From Collinsella aerofaciens (GTDB lineage: Bacteria > Actinomycetota > Coriobacteriia > Coriobacteriales > Coriobacteriaceae), in assembly GCF_005844325.1 (NCBI RefSeq), contig NZ_SPFY01000010.1, forward strand, positions 1-64,000: a stretch of DNA of 64,000 nucleotides, given 5' to 3'. Below are positions 1,606 to 48,458 of the stretch, piece after piece (position 1 is the stretch's first letter; each line of letters begins with the position of its first letter). A program made the position numbers and the translations under genes. The notes under the pieces were generated by a model. It worked only from the letters and a program-made list of their open reading frames with translations. It was not told the DNA's origin and searched no databases.

Positions 1606-3506
1606 TTGAGTGTCGGGGCGTTTCCTTTTGCTATGACGGTGCTGCACTGGCGCTCGATGGCATCGATCTGAACATCGAGGAGGGGGAGTTTTTCTGCATC
1701 CTCGGCGGCAACGGGTCGGGCAAGTCGACGTTTGCCAAGCATTTGAACGCGCTGCTGCAGCCCGATGCGGGAACGGTGTGCGTCAACGGCTTGGACGCGT
1801 CCGATCCCGAGCTGGTCTACGACATTCGTTCGACCGCGGGCATGGTATTCCAGAATCCCGACGACCAGCTTGTGGCGACGCTTGTCGAAGATGACGTTGC
1901 GTTTGGTCCCGAAAACTTAGGGGTCGAATCGCCCCTGATCGCGCAGCGCGTGCGCGAGGCGCTGAAGGCCGTGGGCCTGGCGGGCTTTGAGCGCCACGAG
2001 ACCCACGCGCTCTCGGGTGGACAAAAGCAGCGCGTGGCGCTTGCCGGCGTGCTCGCTATGGAGCCGCGCGTGCTCATTTTGGACGAGGCGTCCTCGATGC
2101 TCGATCCGCGCGGGCGCAAGGGCCTTATGAAGGCCTGTCACGCGCTGCACGAACGCGGCATGACCATCGTGATGATTACGCACTTTATGGAAGAGGCCGC
2201 TGAGGCCGATCGCGTTGCTGTCTTCCAAGCGGGCCGCGTTGCCATGCTCGGTACTCCCGATGAAATCTTGACGCAGGCGGACGAACTTGCACAGCTCAAC
2301 TTGGATATGCCGGAGTCGTGCCGTTTGGGCATGGCACTTCGTGAGAAGGGTATGCCCATTTGCGCGAAGGTGCGCGAGGCGGATATGGTCGCCGATATAG
2401 CGCAGGCTTATGCCGAGCGGAGTAGGACAGGCATCGCCGGGCGGCCTTTCGCATCCGATCCTCGTATTCCCGACAACGTCTCCTCTGCAATCGATGGCGC
2501 AGACGCGCTGGAGCCCGTCATCGAGGTTTCGCACCTTTCGTATAGCTACTCGCTGAGCGCCCGCGAGCGTCGCCGTTGGCACAAGCGCTCAGCCGTCGAG
2601 GGCGCATCGAACAAACAGGCTCTCTGGGGCAACGACCCCAGCAGTCCGTGGGCACTGCGTGATGTATCGCTGACGGTGCGTCGTGGCGAGTTCCTGGGCC
2701 TTGCGGGCCATACCGGTTCGGGTAAGTCGACGCTGGTTCAGCATCTCAACGGTCTGATTCGTCCCCAGGAGGGTTCCGTTTACGCGTTGGGGCTCGACCT
2801 GGTAAATAAGAAAGATGCCGCCGCGGTTAAGGCAAAGGTCGGCGTGGTGTTTCAGTATCCAGAGCGTCAGCTGTTTGCCGAGACCGTGGCACAGGACGTG
2901 GCGTTTGGTCCGCATAACCTTGGCTTGTCGCAGGCCGAGGTTGCCCGCCGCGTTGAGTCGTCGCTCGCGCGCGTGGGCCTCGATCTGGCCACGGTGGGCG
3001 ACAAGAGCCCCTTTGAGCTTTCGGGCGGGCAGCAGCGGCGCGTGGCGTTTGCCGGCGTGCTCGCCATGGAGCCCGAGGTCCTGGTGCTCGATGAGCCCAT
3101 GGCGGGGCTCGATCCGGCGGCGCGCAGTGATTTCCTGGAGCTCATCGATCGACTTCACCATGGGGGCCTGACCGTCGTCATGGTCTCGCACAGTATGGAT
3201 GACCTTGCCAATTGCTGCGACCGTATTGTCGTGATGAACGAGGGCACGGTGTTTGCCGAGGGTACGCCCGCTCAGGTTTTTGCGCATGCGGATGAGCTCA
3301 AGTCGATTGGCTTGGGTGTTCCCGCTGCCCAGCGCATGGCGCTGGCGCTTGCGAAGGCAGACGTGCCGCTGCGCTTTGACGGCCTCTATACGGTTGAGTC
3401 GCTGGCAGACGAGTTGGTGGACCTGCTTATCGGTCGCTCGGACGGTTCTTCTGACGTCTCGGACAAAGCCAAATCCGAAACGGTCGCGCGAGAGGAGGGC
3501 TGCTAA
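1602..3506 (+). CDS. ecfA: ECF transporter fused double ATPase (EcfA-EcfA')
   Basis: The 634-residue protein contains two complete ABC ATPases in one chain. Domain 1 (about residues 1-230) has Walker A GGNGSGKST, signature LSGGQKQR and Walker B VLILDEASS. Domain 2 (about 305-560) has Walker A GHTGSGKST, signature LSGGQQRR and Walker B VLVLDEP. A linker of about 70 residues joins them. ECF transporters normally use two separate ATPase subunits of about 280 residues; here they are fused. Together they power substrate release through EcfT. The gene overlaps ribU by 4 nt and ecfT by 1 nt, so the module is translated as one unit under the FMN riboswitch. Confidence 0.93.
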   Translation: MIECRGVSFCYDGAALALDGIDLNIEEGEFFCILGGNGSGKSTFAKHLNALLQPDAGTVCVNGLDASDPELVYDIRSTAGMVFQNPDDQLVATLVEDDVAFGPENLGVESPLIAQRVREALKAVGLAGFERHETHALSGGQKQRVALAGVLAMEPRVLILDEASSMLDPRGRKGLMKACHALHERGMTIVMITHFMEEAAEADRVAVFQAGRVAMLGTPDEILTQADELAQLNLDMPESCRLGMALREKGMPICAKVREADMVADIAQAYAERSRTGIAGRPFASDPRIPDNVSSAIDGADALEPVIEVSHLSYSYSLSARERRRWHKRSAVEGASNKQALWGNDPSSPWALRDVSLTVRRGEFLGLAGHTGSGKSTLVQHLNGLIRPQEGSVYALGLDLVNKKDAAAVKAKVGVVFQYPERQLFAETVAQDVAFGPHNLGLSQAEVARRVESSLARVGLDLATVGDKSPFELSGGQQRRVAFAGVLAMEPEVLVLDEPMAGLDPAARSDFLELIDRLHHGGLTVVMVSHSMDDLANCCDRIVVMNEGTVFAEGTPAQVFAHADELKSIGLGVPAAQRMALALAKADVPLRFDGLYTVESLADELVDLLIGRSDGSSDVSDKAKSETVAREEGC

Positions 3507-46097: not shown

Positions 46098-47438
46098 CTA
46101 ACTCCATTCAGCGATGTCGATCATTCTACGGAGGCGCCATGTAAGCGCCTCTTTTAGATATGGCAGCCTTGCCGTGAGCGCGTCGTTTCTGGACAGAATC
46201 TCGATTGCCTCGTCAACGAAGCCTTCGAGTTTGTCGCCGTCAAACCAGCCCATGTCCTCGACGAGCAACATTTGTTTGGCGGGGCTTGAATGAAATTGTG
46301 CGCTGGTAAAACTGTGCTCTCCCGCCCTAAGCTCTTCTAGTGATATGTTGCACCAGAGTGATGAGCCCGAATCGAAGATGGGGGCTGGTCTGCAGGCTAG
46401 CGTGTTTACGTTTCGCACAAGGCCAAAGTTACGCCAATGGCGGTCATAGTTGGCGATGATGTCGTCGCACACGATCATGCGGTCAAGGGCGTCTTTTATA
46501 TCTGTCGCTCCAAGCTCTTCGCAGTTTGCTACATACCGTTCGTAATCGGTTAGTCGCTCGTCTGCATTTGCATGCTGGTTTACATAGAACGCAGGGACAT
46601 ACTCTTCTTCATCAGTTAAGAAGACATCGCATGTGCTCAGGGCGGAAGTGCCCGTGCCCTCGAGCGAGTAAGGCACATAATCGCAGGCGTTTAGGATGCG
46701 ACGGTGGAGCGCGGTCGCCACCAGCTCGTTATAAGGTTCCTGGTCCAGGTGCGCTCCTGCCTTATGCAGAATTCGACGTTCGCCCTCGCACGTCCAGTAC
46801 TTTTGAAGATTGCCGTCCGAGGTGTTATCGGGCTTTGCGGCAGCCGCTTTTCCCTCTGGGGCAAAGGGTGCAATGGACAGCGAGACGTCATCAAAGGCGT
46901 TATTGAAGAAGTTGATATCCTCCCAGGTGAGACCGGAACCTTGGGGCCTAATCCAATACTGGTCGGATAAGGAGAGGCCGAGATTTCGCTGGACGAGTTC
47001 ATCGGGAACATCGACTGCGGCTTCTGCAAGCAGGGAGGCTAGCCCAATGCGTGCGAGCGGGATACCGCGGCCGCGCCACCAGATGCGGAAGGAGTCTAGC
47101 GATATGGGGCTATTAGGGCCAAATACTCCAATAGGGGCGTGGGCGTAATCGATGTCGGCACCGATGTGGGTAAAGTCTTTTCGCGATGTACTGTAGACCA
47201 GCTGAGCGACTTCGTGCGTGCGATTCATGAGGGTGAACGCGATCTCGCTCTTACCGTGGCCGCGGCGGGGACGTCCCCCCGTTTTGGTCACGGAGCGGAG
47301 TCGCGTGTCGACGCTGTCTTTGTCGATGAGCCATACACCAGAAGCCTTGCGGGCCTCAAGTGCTCCGTTTTTTATGAGCTCCTGCACCCTGCGCGGAGTG
47401 ATGCCGAGCAGCTCGGCGGCTTCTTTGGTAGTAAGCAT
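46098..47438 (-). CDS. HTH-fused HipA-like kinase
   Basis: The 446-residue protein joins a DNA-binding and a kinase domain. Residues 1-55 form an excisionase/MerR-like helix-turn-helix (MLTTKEAAELLGITPRRVQE, then a VWLIDKDSV wing). Residues about 190-420 resemble the HipA C-terminal kinase: a KYWTCEGERRILHKAG strand with the ATP Lys, the catalytic loop ANYDRHWRNFG near residue 330 and metal-binding FDSGSSLW near 355. No separate antitoxin gene is present. The ATG at 47438 begins the helix-turn-helix; the frame above it runs through the operator. It is unrelated in length to the hipA at 37751 and could be a self-repressed kinase. Confidence 0.82.
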   Translation of the reverse strand: MLTTKEAAELLGITPRRVQELIKNGALEARKASGVWLIDKDSVDTRLRSVTKTGGRPRRGHGKSEIAFTLMNRTHEVAQLVYSTSRKDFTHIGADIDYAHAPIGVFGPNSPISLDSFRIWWRGRGIPLARIGLASLLAEAAVDVPDELVQRNLGLSLSDQYWIRPQGSGLTWEDINFFNNAFDDVSLSIAPFAPEGKAAAAKPDNTSDGNLQKYWTCEGERRILHKAGAHLDQEPYNELVATALHRRILNACDYVPYSLEGTGTSALSTCDVFLTDEEEYVPAFYVNQHANADERLTDYERYVANCEELGATDIKDALDRMIVCDDIIANYDRHWRNFGLVRNVNTLACRPAPIFDSGSSLWCNISLEELRAGEHSFTSAQFHSSPAKQMLLVEDMGWFDGDKLEGFVDEAIEILSRNDALTARLPYLKEALTWRLRRMIDIAEWS

Positions 47439-47448
47439 CGCGAAACCC

Positions 47449-47509
47449 TTCGCCAGAACGAATAGTTTTATATATAGCAATTGTAATTAAAACTATTCGT
47501 TCTGGCGAA
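47449..47509. promoter_or_regulatory. Large operator-like inverted repeat before the HTH-kinase gene
   Basis: Two perfect 22-nt arms (47449-47470 and 47488-47509, containing CGCCAGAACGAATAG and CTATTCGTTCTGGCG) flank a 17-nt AT-rich spacer with TATATA. The near arm ends 10 nt before the start codon, so binding would block transcription. The HTH domain of the same gene is the obvious candidate ligand. Confidence 0.85.
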
Positions 47510-47662
47510 TGGTTTTAAGATTGAGGGCGCACTGACAGAAATGAACGGGCCTGGTACGCGTTGTTGCTGGATTTTGCATATTTGTATAACGCCGTGCGGC
47601 CTGTTGCGCCCCGTCCGCAATTCCTTTATTCTTAACTCGCTTCGCGTGAAAGCGCCAAGTGT

Positions 47663-47737
47663 GCCAGTGTGGCGCAACGGTAGCGCAACTGATTTGTAAT
47701 CAGTGGGTTGCAGGTTCGATTCCTGTCACTGGCTCCA
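47663..47737 (+). tRNA. tRNA-Thr (anticodon TGT)
   Basis: A 75-nt cloverleaf: GCCAGTG pairs with CACTGGC, the anticodon stem ACTGA/TCAGT encloses TTTGTAA with anticodon TGT, the T-loop is TTCGATT and CCA is encoded. Confidence 0.96.
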
Positions 47738-47747
47738 TGAGAGTTTC

Positions 47748-47783
47748 GGGCTCTGTTTCCTTGTGGGACAGGGCCCGTTTCTA
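47748..47783 (+). terminator. Terminator of tRNA-Thr
   Basis: CGGGCTCTGT pairs with ACAGGGCCCG with one mismatch around a 10-nt loop, followed by TTTCTATTT. Confidence 0.75.
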
Positions 47784-47830: not shown

Positions 47831-48050
47831 TGTCTCGATCCGTAACACGAGTGGGCTGAAGACCCTCCTTATAGTTACAGATCGAAACATTGCCAAGGGA
47901 AGGCCGATAACATCTCGATCCGTAACACGAAGAGGCTGAAAACCGTTCTTACTGTTACAGAATGAGACGTAAGCGGGGGTTTCTGCGAAACATCTCGATC
48001 TGTAACAGATAGGGGAGGAATAACCCTCTTACTGTTACAGGTCGAGACAT
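47831..48050. repeat. Array of three 60-bp palindromic units, exact 80-bp period
   Basis: Units start at 47831, 47911 and 47991. Each opens with TCTCGATC(C/T)GTAACA and closes with (A/T)GTTACAG plus a GATCGAGACA-like tail, so each folds into a hairpin. The middle contains a second short stem that changes between units while keeping G-rich and C-rich sides (TGGG/CCC, AGG/CC, AGGGG/CCC). The 20-bp spacers (47891-47910 and 47971-47990) are unrelated. No open frame follows the pattern. Confidence 0.85.
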
Positions 48051-48078
48051 AGGCCGGGGCGAGGTTGGTCATCGTCAT

Positions 48079-48222
48079 CGAGCGTGGATTATCGGACACA
48101 CGAGCGTGGAAAATCTTCCGCCTAGTGAATGAGCGTGGATAATCTGCCACTTTGGATTCGATGGCACGGCAAAGTGGGAGATTATCCACGCTCGATTTCA
48201 AACGGAAGAAAATCCACGCTCG
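48079..48222. repeat. Nested palindrome of five GAGCGTGGATAATC-like motifs
   Basis: Three direct copies (48079-48093, 48101-48120, 48130-48154) and two inverted copies (48170-48194, 48203-48222). The third and fourth pair over 24 nt with one mismatch around a 15-nt loop; the second and fifth pair at 17 of 20 positions outside them. The inverted reading GATTATCCACG is one base away from a DnaA box. Confidence 0.85.
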
Positions 48223-48458
48223 ATTTTGCCTGGGAAGAGCAATCTTCTGTCTGGGCAGCCCCGATCTCGACCTATATATAGGTGCAAATAAGCTGGTATC
48301 GAAGGTCGATGCTGCAGATGTACTCCACCGTGACAAAGTGTTCCCTCGTGAAATGTCACAAGCGTAGCCAAATCCACCGTCCTTCATATCCAAACTCAAC
48401 AAAACCGCAGGTCACAGCTATATAGATACGCCCGGCACCGTGTATCTAGAGGTTTTCG
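48223..48458. other. Gene-free spacer with minor palindromes
   Basis: No gene is supported. Visible are the palindrome CCTATATATAGG (48271-48282), a GTGACA/TGTCAC hairpin at about 48329-48358, and a TAGATAC/GTATCTA hairpin at about 48423-48447 just before the tRNA promoter. Confidence 0.45.

Follow-up and report, generated by a model that had tools for sequence, protein, structure and literature searches.

Regularly spaced dyad arrays confined to the Collinsella aerofaciens lineage as putative clusters of protein-binding sites on duplex DNA

Background

Binding of gyrase, IHF or DNA polymerase I is one property by which REPs and BIMEs are recognized. The closest described systems to the arrays reported here share several features of layout with them. 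REPs are 20-40-bp palindromes that are tagged GTAG or CGTC, lie mostly downstream of genes and are often tied to RAYT genes (PMC3733652). In BIMEs, REPs are regularly spaced in alternating orientation and bind gyrase or IHF, and the length of the segment between REPs varies substantially in the BIMEs of Stenotrophomonas (PMC2817692). The Collinsella arrays resemble BIMEs, such as BIME-2 of Escherichia coli, in that they are dispersed extragenic clusters of alternating palindromic units with regular spacing and a variable number of units. However, the Collinsella unit is a 55-bp dyad of two inverted 15-bp half-sites, and all arrays keep a constant spacing of 40-41 bp with intervening sequences that are mostly unrelated. 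The unit also differs from the 20-40-bp REP in length, its logo has no GTAG or CGTC at the ends, and no cognate RAYT flanked by the motif is present at the six Y1_Tnp loci examined. The family is of the interspersed-palindrome kind with a BIME-like layout, and it is not a REP.

Four other systems share parts of this architecture. REPINs and their RAYTs have paired inverted short motifs around a variable spacer in many copies per genome, but none of the RAYT-like genes examined is flanked by the Collinsella motif, the loci are conserved between species, and the arrays reach eight units. CRISPR arrays have a regular period and unrelated spacers. In contrast, the Collinsella repeats alternate in orientation, inner and spacer segments both vary, and no Cas genes were found among the neighbors of the array loci examined. 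Integron attC sites, with the core consensus GTTRRRY / RYYYAAC, are likewise imperfect palindromes with conserved outer boxes and a variable center, but the Collinsella arm GTTACAG does not fit GTTRRRY, cassettes are absent between units, and the spacers are just 24-26 bp. Finally, matS/MatP and parS/ParB use short conserved sites scattered over one part of a chromosome, which recalls the array loci near dnaA in genome G002. The Collinsella motif is unrelated to the matS and parS consensus sequences, and its sites form regular multi-unit arrays. A search of the open-access literature found no description of these arrays, which does not prove that they are undescribed.

The array in the window

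The window is a 64,000-nucleotide stretch of a C. aerofaciens contig. Its array is flanked by tRNA-Thr and by a tRNA-Tyr/Thr/Met-tuf cluster, and in an annotated C. aerofaciens record these genes likewise adjoin the orthologous array. The parts of the array and its setting are:

47663..47737, plus strand: tRNA-Thr(TGT), left neighbor of the array
47747..47777, plus strand: intrinsic-terminator-like hairpin in the interval between tRNA-Thr and the array, also present at the orthologous locus L077
47833..47887, no strand: unit 1, 55-bp dyad with arms 47833-47847 (+) and 47873-47887 (-) around 25 inner bp; covariance model match of 57.3 bits
47888..47912, no strand: spacer 1, 25 bp, between units 1 and 2
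47913..47967, no strand: unit 2, 55-bp dyad with arms 47913-47927 (+) and 47953-47967 (-); covariance model match of 67.1 bits
47968..47992, no strand: spacer 2, 25 bp, between units 2 and 3
47993..48047, no strand: unit 3, 55-bp dyad with arms 47993-48007 (+) and 48033-48047 (-); covariance model match of 68.7 bits
48459..48488, plus strand: promoter-like site on the 3' side of the array, upstream of the tRNA-Tyr/Thr/Met-tuf cluster

The 15-mer arm TCTCGATCTGTAACA is found with 0-2 mismatches at 47833(+), 47873(-), 47913(+), 47953(-), 47993(+) and 48033(-), a step of exactly 40 bp in alternating orientation. At up to three mismatches the window contains eight matches in 64 kb (0.98 expected; eight reached in 0 of 100 shuffles), six of which are members of the array. 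Paired up, the arms give three 55-bp palindromic units with 25-bp spacers and an 80-bp period, and unit 3 is the nearest of the three to the family consensus. An earlier note on this DNA had recognized three units at an exact 80-bp period with unrelated spacers, and both observations stand. The 60-bp units and 20-bp spacers given there describe the same array, but the conserved core is 55 bp and the spacer 25 bp; the longer unit takes in two to three flanking bases per side. The suggestion that 80 bp approximates whole helical turns is not confirmed. At 10.5 bp per turn this length makes 7.6 turns, and a whole number would call for about 10.0 bp per turn. The array sits between the terminator-like hairpin and the promoter-like site, a position that may leave the stretch untranscribed.

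Distribution across genomes

Copies were counted genome-wide with a covariance model made from 26 units. In the 2.19-Mb source genome the model has 110 matches on both strands, equivalent to 55 units in about 20 arrays. Within a genus set of 45 genomes, arrays occur in 24, a single site in four, and nothing in 17. Each of the 24 array-bearing genomes has at least 54 matches, and their unit numbers run from about 27 to at least 60. Recurrence of the same geometry at about 20 loci in 24 genomes excludes a chance tandem duplication, the outcome that the note had set against its own reading.

An order-wide search (299 genomes, 107 genera) found the family in one genus only and in 0 of the 106 others. 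The search of the phylum (396 genomes) added a single match, in G580, whose weak score (30.6 bits) led us to treat it as chance and not as a true family member. In a pattern scan of named genomes, all of the matches listed are Collinsella, the genus that the note had guessed, and most are C. aerofaciens. No array match was returned by an exact-pattern search of IMG/VR or by a search of phage records. The sole match in the plasmid collection is a 900-kb C. aerofaciens record with chromosomal genes (NZ_OY725717.1, labelled 'plasmid 6'). It carries tuf, cysS, disA and ribosomal protein genes and is therefore probably a chromosomal piece. The family appears to be restricted to C. aerofaciens, a bacterium very common in the human gut, and its close relatives.

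Geometry and sequence conservation

Distinct units are 55 bp long in 394 cases and 56 bp in five. Apparent 49-bp units are an artefact in which the pattern matched a shifted right arm, and most entries of 48-50 bp are of this kind. The period between units is 80 bp (158 cases), 81 bp (95), 79 bp (7) or 75 bp (1). From one half-site start to the next the distance is 40 bp inside the unit and 40 or 41 bp over the spacer, and spacers are 24-26 bp long across the family. The inner segment has a fixed length even though few inner or spacer sequences are related from one unit to another. Alignments of orthologues have 1.1 gaps per 100 substitutions in units and 3.9 in flanks, about 3.5-fold rarer in units; gap counts made under loose penalties were excluded because compensating gaps inflated them. 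One-base length changes are tolerated in the spacers between orthologues.

The symmetrized logo reads TCT-C-R-ATCTGTAACA-NN-TAG-N-SSSS-N-WWW. Divergence between orthologous units is 0.1-5% at T1-T3 and A6-A15, 16% at position 4 and 28% at position 5. Further inward it is 14-18% at positions 16-17, 5% at T18, 6% at position 20, 9-15% at positions 22-26 (12-15% at 25-26), and 3-4% at the A-tract center. Isolated conserved bases stand among variable ones in these alignments, a pattern indicative of sequence recognition. Gene conversion may contribute to the likeness of the arms, but it leaves the conserved inner positions unexplained, and isolated bases of this kind are hard to explain by gene conversion alone. 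The A/T periodicity of the arrays has its maximum at 10.0 with neighboring harmonics nearly equal. A wedge-model estimate gives no excess of intrinsic DNA curvature in the arrays (44.8, compared with 54.3 for shuffled sequences and 49.3 for other intergenic DNA).

Pairing and covariation

The earlier note had also described each unit as a hairpin with conserved outer arms and an inner stem that changes on both sides in a compensating way. The outer part of this description survives in that single units fold better than shuffles (z -2.2 to -7.5), an effect due chiefly to the outer arms. The inner stem fares otherwise: RNAalifold predicts no helix there, and across 72 non-redundant units the inner 11 pairs are standard in 44.7% of cases versus 50.0% in shuffles, a value equaled or exceeded by all 500 of the 500 shuffles made. 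This deficit arises in part from a non-palindromic core, GGCC-AAA-CGG, that emerges when units are oriented by the A-tract. The covariation test that had been proposed as a check yielded no covariation in the inner stem, and the full 26-pair hairpin has no excess of it either.

Covariation is not applicable to the outer stem, which hardly varies apart from pair 5/51. There, the bases are paired at a frequency of 0.546 against 0.498 expected in a larger set, which is not above chance, whereas a smaller set gave a weak excess. No pairing was detected within spacers, where several pairs fall below chance. As far as these alignments indicate, it is the sequence that is conserved and not the pairing. 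The argument for selection on RNA or cruciform structure therefore falls with the lack of covariation inside the unit, and such selection is not supported. Alternatively, a transposase might recognize the conserved arms in the form of a single-stranded hairpin, or the arms might be read as an RNA stem.

Loci and turnover of units

Comparison of flanks assigns 187 arrays from many genomes to 22 orthologous loci, most of which are common to several species. Unit number at one locus ranges from 1 to 8. Whole units are present or absent between close relatives, as at the window locus (three units in the source genome, two in G002), and the junctions of unit gain or loss resemble recombination at the arms. 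Of 139 inner clusters, 10 combine sequences from different loci, as do 2 of 121 spacer clusters. There is one likely inversion of an inner segment (locus group 5, L166 versus L142) and one spacer case in group 4, and the cases in group 2 are possibly errors of locus orientation. Clean empty sites that would reveal an insertion footprint were sought without success, the sole clear candidate being a decayed array unit.

In the two genomes studied in detail, every credible array lies between called genes. One flagged gene overlap (L074:190) has nine mismatches and is not a credible unit. By a simple codon-usage gene caller, the genes at 18 loci are convergent at eight, codirectional at five and divergent at five. 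A terminator between gene and array is not a general feature, since a strict scan finds one in only 17 of 176 cases. The neighbors have no common theme and include genes for a glycosyl hydrolase, ClpB, DXP synthase, an Nramp transporter, RF3, pantothenate kinase and a phosphorylase, among others. In G002, a single contig with a 2.3-Mb chromosome, the distance to dnaA is no more than about 700 kb for 16 of 18 loci; this mild bias might stem from gene density.

Possible functions and origins

Dyad half-sites, fixed spacing, presence in all intergenic orientation classes, conserved loci and the lack of covariation are together best explained by protein sites on duplex DNA. The array may be a cluster of dyad-symmetric duplex-DNA sites for a putative sequence-specific protein of the C. 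aerofaciens lineage, a reading to which we give about an even chance. Of the three possibilities raised in the earlier note, the multivalent protein-binding site fits best. We infer protein binding and the duplex state of the target, and propose a structural role by analogy only, as predicted curvature is not raised. Each 55-bp unit would offer two inverted half-sites (TCTCRATCTGTAACA-NN-TAG) about an A/T-rich center, and half-sites at 40 bp (40 or 41 bp across the spacer) would allow several protein molecules to load as a regular cluster. The role is likely to be structural, such as chromosome folding, insulation or supercoil handling, as has been proposed for BIMEs, and not control of one promoter. 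A more specific version, which we regard as unlikely in its full form, is that the arrays are loading platforms on which a putative chromosome-organizing protein would assemble along a lattice of alternating half-sites with a 40-bp step, in a system limited to the C. aerofaciens lineage, with loci that are kept and units that turn over quickly. The family's pairing of strict geometry, a half-site every 40-41 bp, with fast turnover of units and of the sequences between them at stationary loci is rarely seen.

The conserved half-site is a ready bait for discovery of such a protein. One candidate considered was the protein with HTH_17 and HipA_C-like domains encoded beside the array (46098-47447, minus strand). 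Homologues of this neighboring gene (E < 1e-20) occur in 23 of 24 array-bearing genomes versus 2 of 21 others, but array-bearing G008 lacks the protein, and ancestry is a confounder of the pattern. We therefore keep it only as a lead. The start of this gene has a long inverted repeat, TTCGCCAGAACGAATAGTTTT ... AAAACTATTCGTTCTGGCGAA (47451-47511), that is probably its own operator.

The arrays also offer a clean way to ask whether a chromosomal function keeps BIME-like repeats in place or whether they are the residue of mobile DNA. The mobile origin that the note had entertained as a decayed repeat persists as a rival in the following form. The arrays would be REP/BIME-type non-autonomous mobile repeats, spread by a Y1/HUH RAYT-like tyrosine transposase and now mostly fixed, in which inter-arm recombination alters unit number. 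This origin has a real but smaller chance and we consider it doubtful. Dispersed, extragenic, palindromic units in regular alternation are found in BIMEs (PMC2817692), Y1_Tnp (PF01797) is encoded in all 28 unit-bearing genomes, compared with 11 of the 17 that have no unit, and some inner and spacer sequences recur at different loci. However, a search for the arm (up to three mismatches) in about 1-3 kb around six Y1_Tnp loci (L203-L208) gave no match, contigs C8 and C18 with this genome's two Y1_Tnp copies are devoid of units, and one Y1_Tnp gene adjoins a different 36-bp inverted repeat. REP super-families are defined by a GTAG or CGTC tag at the end (PMC3733652), and no such tag occurs in the conserved parts. 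The loci are largely common to species, the candidate empty site is a decayed array, and no active mobilizer of the arrays was found.

Alternatively, the units could act in RNA as hairpins at transcript 3' ends that stabilize mRNA, end transcription or yield small RNAs on cleavage. We judge this improbable. The folding of every unit and the convergent genes that flank 8 of 18 loci are compatible with it, but the inner stem does not covary, pair 5/51 is not paired above chance in the larger set, and the 5 of 18 loci between divergent genes are unsuited to a 3'-UTR hairpin. Of 1010 unit ends, just 148 have a T-run after them, and the array of the window is preceded by a terminator-like hairpin and followed by a promoter-like site. 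On the array, all Rfam families score below their gathering thresholds, and the weak microRNA matches, which are far below, were set aside.

Conventional operators for a single transcription regulator of adjacent genes are very unlikely: the half-sites are conserved and dyad-symmetric, some arrays lie upstream of genes such as clpB, and two array-less genomes retain a single unit ahead of a clpB-like gene, at what is probably the locus with up to three units elsewhere, but the neighboring genes are functionally unrelated and 8 of 18 loci lie between gene 3' ends.

The note had pointed to the lack of CRISPR genes. The alternating inverted half-sites differ from the direct repeats of CRISPR, and the flanking proteins at the loci examined are unrelated to Cas.

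Other repeats and elements

A dispersed palindrome, CCACCACAAAGG..GGTGCCTGTCCCC..CCTTTGTGGTGG, occurs no more than 150 bp from the arrays in slightly fewer than half of the locus groups (e.g. at L065, L100, L121 and L082). It was rejected as an array partner since it is beside some loci and not others, and no copy of the repeat is beside the Y1_Tnp genes. Where the array is missing at an orthologous locus (L200, about 2540-3089), there is instead a long GC-rich hairpin (GCCCCGGCCACACCTTTCCCTC...GAGGGAAAGGTGTGGCCGGGGC). On contig C8 of genome G000 (L205, 3717-3839), a perfect 36-bp inverted repeat, GGTAGTCAATTTGGGACGGGGCTATTTTAGCTACCC, is near a PF01797 (RAYT-like) gene and is possibly the real partner of that transposase.

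The window itself contains a second repeat cluster right after the array (48077-48226), with three forward and two reverse GAGCGTGGATTATC-type motifs that form a long hairpin. The genome has related copies of this cluster on contigs C13, C39 and C43 as well. An FMN riboswitch is located at positions 817-1009 of the window (94.7 bits).
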